Part shown: positions 522-33,745 of the stretch, in pieces | Position numbering within the stretch: the stretch's first letter is position 1 | How the letters are laid out: the number at the start of each line of letters is the position of its first letter | IMG/VR virus record: IMGVR_UViG_3300007734_000599 | Span: 1 to 33,745 of that record | Origin: a virus | Direction: 5' to 3' (one strand) | Length of the DNA stretch: 33,745 nt | Made by a program: the position numbers and the translations under genes | Notes under the pieces: model-generated | What the model saw: only the letters and a program-made list of their open reading frames with translations | Told to the model about the DNA's origin: nothing | The model's database searches: none

Positions 522-1550
522 ATGTCAGAGATTGCGGCGACGAAGCCGAATGGTCTCCGATCGGCTTCGCTATTCGCCGGCTGTGGCGGATCGAGTCTCG
601 GATATAAGATGGCCGGATTCCGAGTCGTCTTCGCCGTTGAATTCATAGAGGCGGCGAGATTGGTCTATCGCGAGAACTTTCCAGGAACGCCGATCATCGC
701 AGACGACATAAGGACGGTCGATCCGATAGAGACAATCGAATCCATAGGAATCAAGGTTGGAGAGTTGGATGTCCTCGATGGATCGCCTCCGTGCGCATCG
801 TTCTCGACCTCTGGAAAGCGCGAGAAGCTATGGGGCAAGGAAAAAGACTATAGCGGAACGACACAGAGGACAGATGACCTCGTCGGCGTCTATGTCGACT
901 GGATCGAAAGAATCCAGCCGAAGGCATTCGTATTCGAGAATGTTGCAGGTATCGCGATCGGAAAAGCGTCTGGAGTTCTTCGCGACTTCATTGATAGGAC
1001 GAGGTCTGCGGGATACATCGTCGATTCGCGTCTTGTCGACGCAAGTTTGCTCGGCATCCCGCAATCTCGTGGAAGAGTATTCACGGTCGGAATCCGCGCG
1101 GACGCTAGACGCTCTGACTTAGAGTTCCCGAAGCCGTATCCACGGCGCGTGTCGATTGCAGAAGCATTTGGAAATGCGGAAAGCGTCGAGCCAGTAGAGT
1201 CCGAAGCATGGTCGAAGGGATACGCGATCGAAGCAGAATGGCGGAAGTGTAAGGAGGGTGGCAAATCTACGCGATATTTCAATCTGTTGAGAGCACACCG
1301 TCGACTTCCATGCCCGACAATTACGGCTATGCACTCTCAGCGTGGCGCGGCGTCTGTCATGCACCCGACGCAATGCCGAAAGTTCTCCGTAGCGGAGCTG
1401 AAGCGTCTATGCTCTTTTCCAGACGACTTCGCTATGAGAGGTACATACAAAGACCAGGCGGAGCGATTCGGCCGTGCTGTACCGCCTCTCATAACATTTG
1501 AAATCGGTCGCGCGATAGCGCGCGCACTGAAAGGGAACCAGTATGTCTGA
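522..1550 (+). CDS. C5-cytosine DNA methyltransferase with unusual motif X (GRAVPP)
   Basis: The 342-residue protein has the ordered C5-methyltransferase motifs. Motif I is FAGCGGSSLGYKMAG near the N-terminus. Motif IV is SPPCASFS with catalytic Cys91. Motif VI is FENV with Glu139. Motif VIII is PQSRGR with Arg183 and Arg185. Motif X is FGRAVPP near the C-terminus. In the family motif X is normally GNAVPP or GNSVP; here the Asn is replaced by Arg318. An Asn to Lys/Arg change at this position is known to let such an enzyme use carboxy-SAM. The gene overlaps the CmoA-like gene by 8 bases, so the two are probably co-translated. The region is AT-richer than its neighbours, suggesting later acquisition. 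Start chosen at 522; an in-frame ATG at 492 would add 10 residues. Target sequence unknown. Confidence 0.93.
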   Translation: MSEIAATKPNGLRSASLFAGCGGSSLGYKMAGFRVVFAVEFIEAARLVYRENFPGTPIIADDIRTVDPIETIESIGIKVGELDVLDGSPPCASFSTSGKREKLWGKEKDYSGTTQRTDDLVGVYVDWIERIQPKAFVFENVAGIAIGKASGVLRDFIDRTRSAGYIVDSRLVDASLLGIPQSRGRVFTVGIRADARRSDLEFPKPYPRRVSIAEAFGNAESVEPVESEAWSKGYAIEAEWRKCKEGGKSTRYFNLLRAHRRLPCPTITAMHSQRGAASVMHPTQCRKFSVAELKRLCSFPDDFAMRGTYKDQAERFGRAVPPLITFEIGRAIARALKGNQYV

Positions 1551-2277
1551 TTCGCTATCGCATATCCCAACCGGAGCATGGAAGTTCGACGAGACGGTCG
1601 GAGAATGCTTCGACGACATGGTCGAGCGATCGGTTCCCCTCTACAGGGAGACGCTTGACCTGCTTGCCCGCATGGCGATCCCACACCTCGGATCAGGACG
1701 AAGCGGTACCATGGTCGACCTCGGGTGCTCGAACGGCAACGCCATCGACCGCATCCTCTCAGTCGCATCCGAAGATCCCAAGAATGGAAAGATCAGGGTG
1801 GTCGGCGTGGACCGAGAGCAGCACATGCTCGACCGATGCCGTGCCAGACACGGAGCGACCATCGAGCTCATCAAGCACGACTTGTCGGAACCGCTTCCGT
1901 ACCGAATCCACGCGCTGAAGCCGGACTGCGTGTTCCTGCTGTGGACCGCCCAGTTCATCGCCCTTGAGCACAGGGCGCGCCTCTTCAGGGAGATCAGGGA
2001 GTCGATCAGCCCTTCTGGAGCGTTGTTCGTCGCCGAGAAGCTGAGAGGACAGACCTCGCGGTTCCAGAATGCGCTCGACAGGCAGTACAGGGACTTCAAG
2101 GTGCGCAACGGCGGGTATTCGCGCGAGGCCGTAGATGCTAAGGCGAAGTCGCTTGAGGGAGTACTGGTCTCCCTCTCCGCTCCAGAGCAGAAGCAGTTCA
2201 TGCAGAACGAGGGATGGAGCGTAGAGGAGGTGACGCGCTACCTTGGCTTTGCCTCGTACTATTGCATTCCACGATGA
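1543..2277 (+). CDS. CmoA-like carboxy-SAM synthase homologue
   Basis: The 244-residue protein aligns along nearly its whole length, from memory, with E. coli CmoA (247 aa). CmoA converts SAM and prephenate into carboxy-S-adenosylmethionine. Shared landmarks are WKFDETVGECFDDMVERSVP (11-32 region), SAM-binding VDLGCSNGNA (58-67), VGVD with Asp90, MLDRCRAR (95-102), TAQF, SGALFVAEK, NGGYS and the C-terminal aromatic stretch. CmoA's usual partner CmoB (tRNA wobble uridine) is not encoded; its neighbour is a DNA C5-methyltransferase overlapping by 8 bases. One caution: the CmoA Arg199 said to hold the carboxylate aligns with Ala201 here, though Lys202 is adjacent. It may make carboxy-SAM, a different SAM analogue, or act as a plain methyltransferase. 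Confidence 0.82.
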   Translation: MSDSLSHIPTGAWKFDETVGECFDDMVERSVPLYRETLDLLARMAIPHLGSGRSGTMVDLGCSNGNAIDRILSVASEDPKNGKIRVVGVDREQHMLDRCRARHGATIELIKHDLSEPLPYRIHALKPDCVFLLWTAQFIALEHRARLFREIRESISPSGALFVAEKLRGQTSRFQNALDRQYRDFKVRNGGYSREAVDAKAKSLEGVLVSLSAPEQKQFMQNEGWSVEEVTRYLGFASYYCIPR

Positions 2278-2294: not shown

Positions 2295-2615
2295 ATGGCA
2301 AGACCTAAGGCCGACATCAAGCCGGAGCAGGTCGCCGCGCTCGCGCGCATCGGATGCACGCAGGAGGAGATCGCCGCCGTCCTGAAATGCACTCCGCGTA
2401 CCCTGCGGAACCGCTTCAAGGAGGAGATCCGGAGCGGCATGGACGAGATGCGCGCGAGCATCCGCCGATGGCAGTACATGAAGGCGAAGGACGGCAATGT
2501 CGCCATGCTCATCTGGCTCGGCAAGCAGTACCTCGGACAGAAGGACAGGACCGAGGAGACGCACAAGGCCGAGGTCATCGAGATCGAGCGCATCGCGCCG
2601 AAGATGCTCGAGTGA
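2295..2615 (+). CDS. terS: Small terminase subunit (copy 1)
   Basis: The 106-residue protein is basic at the N-terminus (ARPKADIKPEQVAALAR) and has a helix-turn-helix stretch, CTQEEIAAVLKCTPRTLRNRF (about 21-41). A C-terminal helical part (YMKAKDGNVAMLIWLGKQYLGQKD) is typical of phage small terminases, which bind the packaging site and hand DNA to the large subunit. It sits directly upstream of the large terminase with a GTGA overlap. Its first ~100 residues are identical, except for Ala2, to the truncated copy at 33447-33745. Confidence 0.85.
   Translation: MARPKADIKPEQVAALARIGCTQEEIAAVLKCTPRTLRNRFKEEIRSGMDEMRASIRRWQYMKAKDGNVAMLIWLGKQYLGQKDRTEETHKAEVIEIERIAPKMLE
2487..2593. repeat. Exact repeat of 33639-33745 (wrap-around overlap)
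   Basis: These 107 bases are identical by eye to the last 107 bases of the window. The nearest mismatch on the 5' side is G2486 against A33638. Further 5', mismatches become more frequent toward the modification cassette. Confidence 0.9.
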
Positions 2616-3790
2616 AGCTCCGCGTACCGGCGATAGAGTCGGTCCTCCATGACTCGCAGCGCGAGGTGTACCGATCGCTTGCGAGGTTCTCCGTCCTCGA
2701 GATCGGAAGACGATGGGGGAAGACCACTTTCGGGGAGCAGGTCGCGCTCGACGACATCATCTCGGGTCGACCCGTCGCATGGTTCGCTCCCTCCTACAAG
2801 TACTTGGCCGACCCGTGGAGATGGTTCGAGCGGACGCTCGGGCGGGTCTGTTCGCGCGTCGACAAGGTAGAGCGTCGCATGGAGTTCAGGACCGGCGGGT
2901 CGCTCGACTTCTGGACGCTCGAGGACGGAGACTCCGGGCGCGGCCGCTCCTACTCGCGGATCATCGTCGACGAGGCGGGATTCGCCCCAGGCCTTCTCGC
3001 ATGGTGGAGATCCGTCGCACGGGCGACCCTCGCGGATCGGAAGGGAGGAGCGATCTTCCTCGGCACTCCGAAGGGTACTGGGGACTTCCATCGACTCTTC
3101 CTCGAGGCGGAGGGAGACACGGCCGGCGAGTGGCGCGCGTTCCGACTCGGCAGCGCGGCGAACCCCCATCTCGATCCCGCCGAGATCGAGGCGGCCAGAC
3201 GGTCGCTTCCCGCCGAGATATTCGCGCAGGAGTTCGAGGGCGTTCCCGCCGAGGACGGAGGGAACCCGTTCGGCCTCGACGCGATCAGGGACTGCATCGG
3301 ACCGATGTCGTCCGCCGATCCCGAATGCTACGGAGTCGACCTCGCGAAGAGTTCGGACTTCACGGTCGCGGTGGGACTCGATCGAGACGGATGCGTATGC
3401 CGGATTGAGCGATGGCAGTCCCCGTGGTCGGTCACGCGCGAGCGGCTCGCGCGGATGATCGGGGACAAGATCGCGCAGATCGACTCGACGGGAGTCGGTG
3501 ATCCGATCGTCGAGGATCTCCGCAAGGTCTGCCGGCGCGCCGAGGGATTCAAGTTCACCTCGCAGAGCAAGCAGCAGTTGATGGAGGGACTCCAGATCGC
3601 GATACAGACGCGGGAGATCCGCTATCCAGACGGATGGCTGCGGTCTGAATTGGAGTCCTTCGGATTCCGATACTCAGGTCGGAGCGTCTCCTACGAGGCG
3701 ACCGTCGGTCACGACGACGGAGTGTGCGCGCTCGCGCTCGCCGTCCATGCGAGGAGATCGAGGAGGCCGCTGCTCCTGAAGGTTCTATGA
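2612..3790 (+). CDS. terL: Large terminase subunit (packaging ATPase/nuclease)
   Basis: The 392-residue protein powers DNA packaging. Walker A is GRRWGKTT (32-39), Walker B is IIVDE with Asp120-Glu121, and the coupling segment is GTPKG (151-155). The RNase H-like nuclease half starts near YGVDLAKSSDFTV (Asp243) and has IDSTGVGDP (Asp291). The GTG start at 2612 overlaps the small terminase stop (GTGA); no better ATG lies nearby. The length is at the short end for the family but both halves are present. The portal ATG overlaps its stop. Confidence 0.93.
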   Translation: MKLRVPAIESVLHDSQREVYRSLARFSVLEIGRRWGKTTFGEQVALDDIISGRPVAWFAPSYKYLADPWRWFERTLGRVCSRVDKVERRMEFRTGGSLDFWTLEDGDSGRGRSYSRIIVDEAGFAPGLLAWWRSVARATLADRKGGAIFLGTPKGTGDFHRLFLEAEGDTAGEWRAFRLGSAANPHLDPAEIEAARRSLPAEIFAQEFEGVPAEDGGNPFGLDAIRDCIGPMSSADPECYGVDLAKSSDFTVAVGLDRDGCVCRIERWQSPWSVTRERLARMIGDKIAQIDSTGVGDPIVEDLRKVCRRAEGFKFTSQSKQQLMEGLQIAIQTREIRYPDGWLRSELESFGFRYSGRSVSYEATVGHDDGVCALALAVHARRSRRPLLLKVL

Positions 3791-10540: not shown

Positions 10541-11686
10541 ATGCCACACACGGACGGGACAGACATGATGGAAGGCGCGCTACTAGTCGAGACTCTCGAA
10601 GGACTTCGTCTCGAGGATCACGCGGACGGCAGCATCCGCGCACTCGACATCGGGAACCTTCTCGAGAAGGTCGATCCGGACAAGGCGTGTCCGATGCTCG
10701 AGTATCTCGCCAGGAAGATCGCTCCGGAGGGAATGCTCCAGTTGACGGTGGCCGACTTCGACCAGATCGTCGGAGCCTACAAGTCGAGCAGGACCGATCC
10801 AGAGGCGATGCTCTTCCGCGACGGTCGCGTCTCGAGCCTCTGGAACCGAGCCAAACTCGGGGACGCGCTGAACCTCTGCGGATTCGAGATCGAGGGAGGA
10901 CTCGAAGGACATTCGTGGGGAACGGACGGTCTGCGAATCGGTGTCAGGGCGCGCCGGCGGTCGGCTCCGATTCCGTCCGTTCCGATGACCGATGTCGAGG
11001 CCATCATGTCGATGCCGCGCATCGCGTGGACCGAGACGATGGCTATGTGCGTCGAGGTCTGCGCGAAGCTCGGTATGCACTTCACGAAGTCAACCGGCGT
11101 GTTCTGGGGGCAATGCCTCGAGCGTATGCTCGAGAGGGCGGAGGAGCGCGGGACGAAGTATGTCCTTACGATCGACTACGATTCGATCTTCGATCCGCGC
11201 GATGTCGTGCGCCTCTGGCAGATCATGGAGCAGAATCCCGATATCGCCGCACTCTGCCCGACGCAGATATCGCGGGAAAAGAACGCGGTACTCGTCTCGA
11301 TCGAGGGAGTACAGACGATGGAGCGCGACGGTATCCCGATGATGCACATACCGACCGACCTCCTATGGCGGGAGGCGTTCCCGATCATCCACGGACACTT
11401 CGGCCTCACGATGATCCGGATGTCGGCCCTGAGGGACATTCCGCATCCGTGGTTCATCGGACATCCGAACGACGACGGAAGATGGCATGACGGGAAGACG
11501 GACGACGACATCCACTTCTGGAGACTCCTGCGGAAGCACGGCAAGAATGTGTGCATGACCCCGAAGGTGAAGATCGGTCACCTGCAACTCCTCATCACCT
11601 GGCCGACGGAGGATCTCGGCTGCCGTCACCAGTACCTGAAGGACTTCCATGCGGACGGGAGGCCCGACGGATGCCGGACCTACTGA
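10541..11686 (+). CDS. GT-A glycosyltransferase-like protein with N-terminal methyltransferase-like half
   Basis: The 381-residue protein has two parts. Residues ~30-140 resemble the C-terminal half of a class I methyltransferase (LDIGNLLEKV, LARKIAPEGMLQLTVADFDQIV, LNLCGFEIEGG), but the glycine-rich SAM motif is missing. Residues ~150-350 resemble a GT-A glycosyltransferase: YVLTIDYDSIFDP with the D-x-D at 212-214, HFGLTMIR, DDDIHFWRLL (321-330) and metal-type His347 in KIGH. The substrate could be capsid, tail or modified DNA; the structural-gene position favours a virion protein. It has a strong AAGGAGGAAGC ribosome-binding site and follows a terminator, so it probably opens a new unit. 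Confidence 0.7.
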   Translation: MPHTDGTDMMEGALLVETLEGLRLEDHADGSIRALDIGNLLEKVDPDKACPMLEYLARKIAPEGMLQLTVADFDQIVGAYKSSRTDPEAMLFRDGRVSSLWNRAKLGDALNLCGFEIEGGLEGHSWGTDGLRIGVRARRRSAPIPSVPMTDVEAIMSMPRIAWTETMAMCVEVCAKLGMHFTKSTGVFWGQCLERMLERAEERGTKYVLTIDYDSIFDPRDVVRLWQIMEQNPDIAALCPTQISREKNAVLVSIEGVQTMERDGIPMMHIPTDLLWREAFPIIHGHFGLTMIRMSALRDIPHPWFIGHPNDDGRWHDGKTDDDIHFWRLLRKHGKNVCMTPKVKIGHLQLLITWPTEDLGCRHQYLKDFHADGRPDGCRTY

Positions 11687-12003: not shown

Positions 12004-12706
12004 GATCGTCCAGGCGTACTGCCGGCGGAACTTCACCGAGCAGCGGTACTACGAGATCAGGGACGGCAACGAGGCCGCGCGGATCGCGCTCTCGAACTAT
12101 CCCGTCTCGGTCGTCCGTTTCGTCGGAGTCGGGTGGGATTCGGTGATGACCGTCTCATCGACCGTTTCGACGGACACGGCCGCGACCGTCTCGGTCGACT
12201 CGGATCACCTCCACCTCTACCGGGTGACATCGACGGGAGCGGCGACATCGACTACTGCGACATTCGGATCGCACGATGTCACCTCGGAACTCGTATCCCA
12301 TGTCAACGGAGAGACTGGATTCTCCGCGAGCCTGATCCTCAATGTTCCGTCGGTCTATCTGCGGAAGCTCGGAGGACGGAGTCTCAGGAACGGTCCCGCC
12401 TATCTCGAGGCTCCAACGGATGCTCTCGAGGACTACCAGGTCGACCTCGACTCGGGGATCGTCTACGGCGAACTCCTGCGGGGACACCGTAGCCTCCTCG
12501 TCGACTATACGGCGGGATTCGCGACGATTCCGTCGGATGTCGAACAGGCGACCCTCCAGATCGCATCCCGTCTCTTCCGGCAGCGGAAGCGCGACACGGC
12601 GGTCGCGAGCGAATCGCTCGGAGGCTACTCCTATTCGCTTCGAGGGATCGCGGAAGTCGAGCAGTCCGAGCGGATGATGCTCGAGCCGTACAGGAGGAGA
12701 CGGTGA
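11891..12706 (+). CDS. Head-tail connector/adaptor protein (gp6-like)
   Basis: The 271-residue protein shows the connector pattern LTTLAVMKAWIG...DAQIQWAINAASRIVQAYCRRNF at the N-terminus. At the C-terminus it has YTAGFATIPSDVEQATLQIASRLFRQRKRDTAVASESLGGYSYS. Such adaptors form a ring under the portal. A central insert of about 110 residues (Thr/Ser-rich, beta-like) makes it longer than the usual ~100-200 residues. AGGAGGAAGCG precedes the ATG. Confidence 0.8.
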   Translation: MATDSNPLTTLAVMKAWIGATTTTDDAQIQWAINAASRIVQAYCRRNFTEQRYYEIRDGNEAARIALSNYPVSVVRFVGVGWDSVMTVSSTVSTDTAATVSVDSDHLHLYRVTSTGAATSTTATFGSHDVTSELVSHVNGETGFSASLILNVPSVYLRKLGGRSLRNGPAYLEAPTDALEDYQVDLDSGIVYGELLRGHRSLLVDYTAGFATIPSDVEQATLQIASRLFRQRKRDTAVASESLGGYSYSLRGIAEVEQSERMMLEPYRRRR

Positions 12707-31612: not shown

Positions 31613-32272
31613 ATGGACAATCAGATCAGGCCAGAGCGATTTTTCGGTCAGGCCGCGCAGGACTTGTTTGTTGCCTCAATGTCGAGCAATGACTTTGGAT
31701 GTTTCGTTGACCTCGGAGCGGGAGATCCGGAGGTTCATTCCAACACCGTCCTACTCGAGCGTGTCTTCGGATGGCGCGGAGTGCTTGCCGACATCGCGAC
31801 CCGCGATCTCCTTGTCCGCGATCGCTCGAGCCAGAACGCCATCTTCGGTGATGCGTTCGACGATGATGTCGACGCGGCCATCGTCAAGCTCGCGGGAGAT
31901 CGTGGTTGGATTGATTATCTTTCGCTCGATCTCGAACCTCCAGACCTAACTCTTCGGAGGCTCTGCTCTCTTCCTCTTGATCGCGTCAGGTTCGGCATCG
32001 TTACTTGCGAGCATGATCTCTATCGCGATCCGACTGGATCAATCAAGGCGGCAATGGCCGGCATTCTCGTTCATCACGGATATCGACTCGTCGCAGACAA
32101 TGTGTCGATGATCGCCGGATCTAAAGATGAATGCGGTCTCGTTCATGTCGAGGACTGGTGGGTTCACCAGTCGATCCACGACTGCCGGGAAGCGTCCCGA
32201 GTTGCCGACGAACTGCGATTCGAGATCATGCGGAGACAGCGCGAGGCCATCATCAAGACGAGGGCGGGATGA
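31613..32272 (+). CDS. FkbM-family methyltransferase
   Basis: The 219-residue protein has the FkbM pattern: FFGQAAQDLFVA near the start, CFVDLGAGDPEVHSNTVLLE with the SAM-binding motif, GWRGVLADI, DYLSLDLEPPDL and a late RFGIVTCEHD. FkbM enzymes O-methylate sugars or small molecules. AT-richer than most of the genome. It is joined to the ParB-like gene by an ATGATGA overlap, so it borders the modification cassette. Its substrate is unknown. Confidence 0.82.
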   Translation: MDNQIRPERFFGQAAQDLFVASMSSNDFGCFVDLGAGDPEVHSNTVLLERVFGWRGVLADIATRDLLVRDRSSQNAIFGDAFDDDVDAAIVKLAGDRGWIDYLSLDLEPPDLTLRRLCSLPLDRVRFGIVTCEHDLYRDPTGSIKAAMAGILVHHGYRLVADNVSMIAGSKDECGLVHVEDWWVHQSIHDCREASRVADELRFEIMRRQREAIIKTRAG

Positions 32273-32381
32273 TGAAGACCGAGCGCGTACCGATTGACTC
32301 CGTATCGCTCGATCCCGCGAATGTCCGCCGGCACGGCGAGCGGAACCTCGCGACGATCAAGGCGAGCCTATCGCGCTTCGG
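32260..32381. repeat. Exact repeat of 1-122
   Basis: Identical to the first 122 bases of the window; the two sequences then diverge progressively toward the 3' end of the ParB-like gene. Confidence 0.9.
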
Positions 32382-32763
32382 CCAGCAGAAGCCGATCGTC
32401 GTCGACGGAGACGGAATCGTCCGGGCCGGCAACGGAACATGGACGGCGGCGAAGGCGCTCGGATGGAAGGAGATCATGGTCGTCCGAACGCCGCTGAAGG
32501 GAGCGGAGGCGACCGCCTACGCGATCGCGGACAACCGGACAGCGGAGCTCGCCGAGTGGGACGACGACGCGCTCGCGCAGACGCTCGCCGCGCTCCAGAT
32601 CGAGGACGAGAAGCTCGCGCTCGACACGGGCTTCGACGCGAAGGATATCGACGCGCTCACCTCTCCACCGAACTTCGGTCCTGCAAGCATTGAGGAACAA
32701 GGCCGACTCGATCAGAAGAAGCCGATGCAATGCCCAGAATGCGGACATGAGTTCACGACCTGA
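32269..32763 (+). CDS. ParB/Srx-like domain protein with C-terminal Cys knuckle (copy 2)
   Basis: The 164-residue protein is nearly the same as copy 1 over its first ~110 residues (differences include D/G at 49 and ITVVRTN/IMVVRTP). It then diverges: residues ~115-150 are different and the end is MQCPECGHEFTT instead of ACPKCGYTWN. The conserved C-P-x-C-G knuckle at the end of two otherwise different tails suggests function. ATG 32269 overlaps the FkbM stop (ATGATGA); the Mom-like start lies inside its last codons. Confidence 0.82.
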   Translation: MMKTERVPIDSVSLDPANVRRHGERNLATIKASLSRFGQQKPIVVDGDGIVRAGNGTWTAAKALGWKEIMVVRTPLKGAEATAYAIADNRTAELAEWDDDALAQTLAALQIEDEKLALDTGFDAKDIDALTSPPNFGPASIEEQGRLDQKKPMQCPECGHEFTT

Positions 32764-33454
32764 ACTTCGTCTCGACTGGTGCTCGCATGATGCCGCGAAG
32801 TACGCGGTCGAGAAGTGGCACTACAGCAGATGTCTCCCATCAGGCAAGATCGTGAAAATAGGAGTGTGGGAGGATAGTTCATTCATCGGTGTGATCTTGT
32901 TTTCCAAAGGTGCAGCACCGCAATCGCATTGCCCATATGGATTGAAAAACACCGAGATATGCGAGCTGACTCGCGTTAGTCTGGCTCGACATCGGACGAC
33001 AGTATCGAAGATCGTCTCGATCGCGATTCGCATGCTATTGAAGCAGTCGCCTGGGCTTCGTTTGATCGTCTCGTATGCTGATCCGGAACAAGGTCATCAC
33101 GGAGGAATCTATGCCGCAGGGAACTGGACCTATGTCGGGCCAACATCTGCGTGCGAACACTTCGTCTATGTTTCAACTGGAGAACGAGTACATAGCAAGA
33201 CACTAAAAACCGGGCGAAGGGGACTTGCAACAAAACTGAAGTCCCAAGGCCTCATCCGATCTATAAAGGTATGGAAACACAAGTTCATCATGCCGCTAGA
33301 TCAGGAAATGCGCGCTAGAATCGCGCCTCTTGCGAAGGCATATCCAAAGCGCGCCGGAAGTGCTGCTAGCGGCACGACCGACTTCCAGTCGGTAAGGGGC
33401 GGTGCAACTCCGACCCCGGCGCTTCCCCACAACGAACGGAGATCCGATGGGTAG
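32747..33454 (+). CDS. mom: Mom-like DNA adenine modification protein
   Basis: The 235-residue protein (phage Mu Mom is about the same length) has the Mom/GNAT signature. Motifs are WHYSRCLPSGKIVKIGVWED (24-43), CELTRVSLARHRTTVSKIVSIA (72-93) and VSYADPEQGHHGGIYAAGNW (108-127). Mu Mom converts adenine in DNA to a methylcarbamoyl-modified form that protects against many restriction enzymes. It starts 17 bases inside the ParB-like gene, recalling the com/mom overlap of Mu. The last ~35 residues (TDFQSVRGGATPTPALPHNE) are encoded by a tRNA-like element and may not be part of the functional fold. Its stop overlaps the small terminase start. Confidence 0.85.
   Translation: MSSRPELRLDWCSHDAAKYAVEKWHYSRCLPSGKIVKIGVWEDSSFIGVILFSKGAAPQSHCPYGLKNTEICELTRVSLARHRTTVSKIVSIAIRMLLKQSPGLRLIVSYADPEQGHHGGIYAAGNWTYVGPTSACEHFVYVSTGERVHSKTLKTGRRGLATKLKSQGLIRSIKVWKHKFIMPLDQEMRARIAPLAKAYPKRAGSAASGTTDFQSVRGGATPTPALPHNERRSDG
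33352..33421 (+). ncRNA. tRNA-like element, anticodon-type TCC (Gly), inside mom 3' end
   Basis: A 70-base stretch can fold as a cloverleaf. The acceptor CGCCGGA (33352-33358) pairs with CCCGGCG (33415-33421) at 6 of 7 positions. The D-stem is TGCT/GGCA (one wobble). The anticodon stem is a perfect ACCGA/TCGGT with loop CTTCCAG. The T-stem GGCGG/CCGAC pairs at 4 of 5 positions, with loop TGCAACT in place of the canonical TTCRANN. The D-loop lacks the usual GG and no CCA follows, so it is more likely a tRNA mimic or remnant than a working tRNA. Confidence 0.45.
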
Positions 33455-33745
33455 GCCGAAGGCCGACATCAAGCCGGAGCAGGTCGCCGCGCTCGCTCGC
33501 ATCGGATGCACTCAGGAGGAGATCGCCGCCGTCCTTAAATGCACTCCGCGTACCCTGCGGAACCGCTTCAAGGAGGAGATCCGAAGCGGCATGGACGAGA
33601 TGCGCGCGAGCATCCGCCGATGGCAGTACATGAAGGCAAAGGACGGCAATGTCGCCATGCTCATCTGGCTCGGCAAGCAGTACCTCGGACAGAAGGACAG
33701 GACCGAGGAGACGCACAAGGCCGAGGTCATCGAGATCGAGCGCAT
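33447..33745 (+). CDS. terS: Small terminase subunit (copy 2, cut by window end)
   Basis: The first 99 residues are identical to the copy at 2295 except for Gly2 in place of Ala2. DNA differs at scattered, mostly synonymous positions that cluster near the 5' end; the last 107 bases are identical. The gene is cut by the window end. ATG overlaps the Mom-like stop. Confidence 0.88.
   Translation, partial: MGRPKADIKPEQVAALARIGCTQEEIAAVLKCTPRTLRNRFKEEIRSGMDEMRASIRRWQYMKAKDGNVAMLIWLGKQYLGQKDRTEETHKAEVIEIER
33639..33745. repeat. Exact repeat of 2487-2593
   Basis: The last 107 bases of the window are identical to 2487-2593 within the first small terminase gene (see that entry). Confidence 0.9.

Follow-up and report, generated by a model that had tools for sequence, protein, structure and literature searches.

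A predicted 5-carboxymethylcytosine cassette in a putatively exchangeable DNA-modification slot of a small phage

A three-gene cassette encoding a ParB-like protein, a CmoX-type transferase, and a CmoA-like protein was found at the start of a viral contig of 33,745 nucleotides, the whole of which is referred to here as the window. By homology, this cassette probably makes 5-carboxymethylcytosine in phage DNA, a reading to which we assign a probability of roughly 0.87. A natural 5-carboxymethylcytosine system, that of Synechococcus phage S-B43, was published in December 2025 (PMC12783734); thus, the central idea of an earlier note on this DNA was right but is not new any more, and its caveat that such a system might since have been published was correct. 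In S-B43, CmoA (SpCmoA) is a carboxy-SAM synthase that is faster than Escherichia coli CmoA, CmoX (SpCmoX) is a C5-methyltransferase that has Arg in place of the motif-X Asn and makes 5-carboxymethylcytosine, and CmoY adds glycine, the glycine amide being the sole form detected in virion DNA (PMC12783734). The same study counted 5,615 CmoX candidates among phages; the contigs of these candidates carried 4,257 CmoA, 2,251 ligase, and 1,660 ParBc sequences (PMC12783734). Relative to that system, what is new here is a second version of the locus, which carries Mom, and a modification slot whose contents appear to be exchangeable. The earlier note had overlooked that publication, the ParB-like gene immediately 5' of the transferase gene, and the Mom-carrying version near the contig end.

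Results

All genes of the cassette and its flank lie on the plus strand. The first (positions 10 to 501) encodes a ParB-like protein with a C-terminal zinc ribbon (CPKCGYTWN), which matched PHROG 620 (E 2.3e-38) and, under the Pfam cut-off, PF02195 (E 1.2e-4). It is followed by cmoX (492 to 1550; PF00145, E 1.6e-50), a predicted DNA cytosine C5-carboxymethyltransferase gene, and by a cmoA-like gene (1543 to 2277), a predicted carboxy-SAM synthase gene with matches to TIGR00740 and PHROG 4752. The small terminase subunit gene (2295 to 2615; PHROG 309, E 2e-7), which forms the right edge of the slot, and the large terminase subunit gene (2615 to 3790; PHROG 2, E 3.7e-30) come next. The earlier note had described, within 522 to 2277, a C5-methyltransferase gene with an 8-base overlap with the downstream gene; the transferase ORF (522 to 1550 when read from Met522) is indeed present, and its stop codon (1548 to 1550) and the ATG of the cmoA-like gene (1543) overlap by 8 bases. 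An in-frame ATG at 492, upstream of Met522, gives MELGVYRIPTMSEIA, with MELGVYRIPT as the added residues. Since several homologues share YR(V/I)PxM immediately ahead of the corresponding Met, ATG 492 is probably the true start rather than 522, the Met start of the earlier note. As this start overlaps the end of the ParB-like gene, the three genes would form one tightly packed unit; in most related loci, a ParB-like gene likewise stands immediately 5' of cmoX or mom.

Elsewhere in the window, most of the predicted genes were compared with Pfam and PHROG, which gave ordinary phage functions and a glycosyltransferase-like match; a glycosyltransferase family 2-like ORF (10541 to 11683; PF13632, E 4e-6) lies right after the capsid region. 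A scan of genome contigs gave one close terminase relative: the large terminase of a Rhodobacteraceae metagenome-assembled genome (RFQY01000039; L275) is 78% identical to that of the window, a weak hint of the host group.

The sequence and predicted structure of the transferase both led to SpCmoX. Counted from Met522, its catalytic SPPC occupies residues 88 to 91 and its motif X, GRAVPP, residues 317 to 322, with Arg318 at the place given by the earlier note. The best PDB sequence match was 8YF3 (E 6e-49; runner-up, 1e-19), the crystal structure of SpCmoX with carboxy-SAM, in which Arg350 contacts the carboxylate (PMC12783734). An AlphaFold2 model of the window protein (pLDDT 89.4) also had 8YF3 as its top structural match in Foldseek, and VIA-align gave 8YF3 a Z score of 36.9 over 309 residues with an rmsd of 2.3, the next structure scoring 33.0. 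Sequence alignment placed window Phe18, Glu40, Phe41, Asp62, Cys91, and Arg318 at SpCmoX Phe25, Glu47, Phe48, Asp69, Cys98, and Arg350, respectively, and Arg318 at HhaI Asn304; because the predicted model is ligand-free, the orientation of Arg318 toward carboxy-SAM was judged through the 8YF3 alignment. Overall identity to SpCmoX is only about 33%. The window protein thus combines the C5-methyltransferase fold and SPPC, the motif-X Arg, the named carboxy-SAM contacts, and a nearby CmoA homologue. These features support its assignment as a CmoX-type carboxymethyltransferase, with the chemistry of this pair predicted from homology.

To relate the motif-X residue to gene neighborhood, relatives were fetched with transferase, ParB-like, and large terminase queries; CmoA was not used as a query. 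The earlier note had proposed looking for CmoA-like genes beside C5-methyltransferases with GR or GK in motif X. In the loci fetched here, a CmoA-like gene was nearby in 32/32 loci with an Arg-type transferase (the window included), compared to 0/16 with an Asn-type and 0/14 with a Met-type enzyme, where the unit is loci rather than independent lineages, some loci being near-identical or from one contig, and two contigs are counted twice in the Met-type tally. Among cultured phages, S-B43, S-CRM01, PaBG, TurkishDelight, and Mcat8 have a motif-X Arg and a CmoA-like gene, while CL131 has a motif-X Asn and no CmoA annotated nearby. Because the profile E-values are below 1e-30 and the motif-X Arg coincides with a CmoA-like neighbor throughout the relatives, we judge that the pairing of the two ORFs is not chance. 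That the transferase is instead an ordinary 5-methylcytosine enzyme, with a neutral Arg in motif X, is a very remote prospect. It does have the fold and motifs common to C5-methyltransferases; however, the association of the motif-X Arg with CmoA is complete in the loci examined, and in SpCmoX the corresponding residue contacts the cofactor carboxylate, the unmutated enzyme takes carboxy-SAM only, and R350N is inactive (PMC12783734). We therefore rejected the neutral Arg on the CmoA association (32/32 versus 0/30).

Several Arg-type transferases (e.g., L130, L153 to L156, L165, and L167 to L170) were considered as CmoA-less enzymes with another partner, a candidate that was dropped when a divergent second CmoA-like subfamily was seen to sit just downstream. 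C5-methyltransferases with GMSVPP, that is, Met for Asn, and no CmoA nearby were seen in L027, L029, L038 to L040, L116, L117, L120, L142, L145, L146, and L148; these Met-type transferases mostly adjoin the same kind of ParB-like gene as in the window.

The product of ORF 1543 to 2277 aligns with CmoA over almost its whole length, in keeping with the end-to-end alignment reported in the earlier note. It matched PHROG 4752 (E 5.6e-42 over residues 6 to 242) and, in the PDB, 1IM8 and 4GEK, and it retains Tyr39, Asp62, Gly64, Ser66, Asp89, Asp117, and Glu164, so that most SAM contacts are kept. The two marks of the tRNA-pathway equivalog, a TIGR00740 score above the curated cut-off of 193 bits and Arg199, are both absent: the protein scored 119 bits (E 2.3e-34) and has Ala at the position of E. 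coli CmoA Arg199, a residue that binds the carboxylate (PMC3663124). For these reasons, we class it from its sequence as a phage-type CmoA rather than a tRNA-pathway equivalog. Loss of Arg199 was considered as a possible reason for disqualification; SpCmoA, however, has Glu there and is active, and the Ala is thus no argument against the CmoA assignment. The low TIGR00740 score and the Ala could also be taken to mean that the protein makes another SAM derivative, or none, and that the transferase moves another group. This is highly improbable, given that SpCmoA, which also lacks Arg199, makes carboxy-SAM faster than the E. coli enzyme does and that Glu164 and most SAM contacts are retained in the window protein. 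A homologue with 76% identity occupies the same position in one relative (L093), and an IMG/VR scan with CmoA returned only L194, on the same contig as L093, because this search reaches close relatives only. Altogether, the 8YF3 match, the kept contacts, and the 32/32 CmoA association support the proposal of the earlier note that carboxy-SAM synthesis is coupled here to an Arg-altered transferase.

A CmoY-type pathway includes an Asn-synthetase-like amide ligase whose gene accompanies those for CmoA and CmoX. On this contig, which may in principle be incomplete yet overlaps itself, no such ligase was found: tblastn with the CmoY proteins of three phages gave a best E value of 0.33 against the window, and PF00733 (Asn_synthase) had no match there even at E 1. 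Because these searches detected no CmoY-type ligase, we predict that modification in the window phage ends at free 5-carboxymethylcytosine. It is unlikely, but worth weighing, that the base, once made, is amidated or esterified by an enzyme of the host or by an unrecognized phage enzyme, giving a different final mark. In favor of this, virion DNA of S-B43 yielded the glycine amide alone, and a conserved ORF with no assigned function (31613 to 32272) adjoins the slot. On the other hand, CmoY-like and Asn_synthase matches are absent from the contig, that ORF is kept whatever the slot contains, even where nothing in the slot is recognized, and the same ligase-free gene order recurs in L093 and Mcat8. 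Thus, we retain the free acid as the predicted mark.

A second version of the locus, likewise on the plus strand, occupies the last part of the contig. The conserved ORF at 31613 to 32272, which forms the left edge of the slot and precedes it in most relatives, had no match in Pfam and PHROG searches and resembles an FkbM-type methyltransferase by eye only. It is followed by a second ParB-like gene (32269 to 32763; PHROG 620, E 8e-39), a gene for a Mom-family DNA modification protein (32747 to 33454; PHROG 1384, E 1e-49; PDB 8BV8, E 1e-9), and another copy of the small terminase gene (33447 to 33745), which is truncated by the contig end and is 97% identical to 2295 to 2593. The Mom protein scored 156 bits against PF25680 (E 9.5e-46), for which the cut-off is 27. 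Window nucleotides 1 to 122 are identical to 32260 to 32381, and the last 107 nucleotides are identical to 2487 to 2593. Between these exact overlaps, the two ParB-like genes share about 91% nucleotide identity over their first 375 nucleotides and then diverge, whereas the small terminase copies are 97% identical at the nucleotide level from the ATG on and do not align 5' of it. The simplest reading of the assembly is that the map is circular, with a length of 32,259 bp, and that the sampled population contains two alternative versions, CmoX-CmoA and Mom, of a single slot. Because a single contig carries both versions, the Mom version might instead be a true second locus in the same genome or an assembly chimera. 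This is quite unlikely: exact self-overlap at both slot edges (122 and 107 nucleotides) is expected when an assembler circles into a variant branch, and two relatives (L002 and L003) whose flanking DNA right beside the slot is 86 to 93% identical to that of the window hold a third content inside, an amino-methyltransferase fusion (PF01555). Moreover, none of the 14 relatives of 29.6 to 35.4 kb has more than one ParB match or more than one full small terminase gene, in keeping with one slot per genome.

We then tallied what lies between the conserved ORF and the small terminase gene in the 59 large-terminase relatives whose sequence covers that ORF as well as the terminase. A fusion of the ParB domain with an N6/N4 amino-methyltransferase filled this interval in 27 relatives, ParB with Mom in 6, ParB with a C5-methyltransferase in 4, and ParB with a TET-associated glycosyltransferase (PF20691) in 3, while the remaining 19 had no recognized gene there. 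In L093, as in the window, ParB is accompanied in the slot by CmoX (51% identity) and CmoA (76%). These contents suggest that the interval is an exchangeable DNA-modification slot and that phages may swap DNA chemistries at one locus. Among the papers listed by literature searches on ParB, Mom, and phage modification slots, none was seen to describe this slot, with most subscription journals and bioRxiv lying outside the search.

Other features of such loci were also recorded. PF20691 genes stand in the ParB-to-terminase slot of L024 (4806 to 5669), L041 (2467 to 3393), L043, and L123, and L266 and L259 have a tandem pair of mom genes. In G002, the contig of L039, a truncated extra small terminase start lies between the C5-methyltransferase gene and the intact small terminase gene (12076 to 12210 and 12227 to 12550); this copy is possibly a scar of cassette exchange.

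Discussion

The cassette of the window resembles that of S-B43 in having a CmoA homologue beside a transferase with SPPC and a motif-X Arg, with the same contacts and fold; it differs in the 33% identity of its CmoX, in the lack of a detected CmoY, in its ParB-CmoX-CmoA arrangement adjoining the terminase genes, and in the alternative slot version that carries Mom. The same layout is seen in Moraxella phage Mcat8 (KR093632; L277, 2430 to 4994), where a ParB-like gene with a zinc ribbon, an Arg-type cmoX (40% identity), and a cmoA-like gene are followed by small terminase-like, terminase, and portal genes with no ligase in between; unlike in the window, however, the CmoA-like gene of Mcat8 is similar to those of the short, divergent subfamily, and its host is unrelated. 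The Mcat8 cassette genes are annotated as encoding hypothetical proteins. Engineered M.MpeI N374K is a carboxymethyltransferase (cited in PMC12783734) in which a basic residue at the motif-X Asn permits the use of carboxy-SAM, as is predicted for the window enzyme; it is nonetheless a CpG enzyme with an engineered Lys, whereas the Arg of the window enzyme is natural and is accompanied by a predicted partner that makes the cofactor. Fusions of a phage ParB-CTPase fold to an N6/N4 methyltransferase are known (PMC12704722), and close relatives of the window phage hold such a fusion in the slot; the ParB-like protein of the window, by contrast, is short and unfused and accompanies a separate, chemically different enzyme. 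Finally, the second slot version encodes a Mom-family protein, as phage Mu does (PDB 8BV8; PF25680), but couples it to a ParB-like gene.

The most likely route begins with the CmoA-like protein, which would convert SAM and prephenate into carboxy-SAM. CmoX would then flip a cytosine out of the helix, Cys91 would attack C6, and the carboxymethyl group would be moved to C5 while Arg318 holds the cofactor carboxylate. The free acid is the predicted final mark and should protect phage DNA from restriction, with both the protective role and a target motif being presumed. The cassette would sit in an exchangeable slot that reaches from the conserved upstream ORF to the small terminase and that in other variants of the same phage holds Mom or amino-methyltransferases.

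The ParB-like protein may act as a loader or adaptor. A wider scheme, which we put forward tentatively and regard as possible rather than probable, is that the phage population holds alternative slot versions, one giving a cytosine carboxymethyl mark and the other a Mom-type adenine mark; that the N-terminal ParB-like domain works as a common loader for chemically unrelated enzymes (amino-methyltransferases, Mom, TET-associated glycosyltransferases, C5-methyltransferases, and CmoX); and that recombination at the ParB and small terminase edges changes the DNA chemistry in one step.

The cassette extends a natural modification, first demonstrated in December 2025, to a small phage whose gene order is terminase-linked and ligase-free, and it makes the window phage a candidate for free 5-carboxymethylcytosine as the final mark. 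One slot with differing chemistries in close relatives would help to explain how phages outpace restriction systems. Furthermore, the slot points to the ParB-like protein as a partner common to many DNA-modifying enzymes and offers a practical hunting ground for new modification enzymes.
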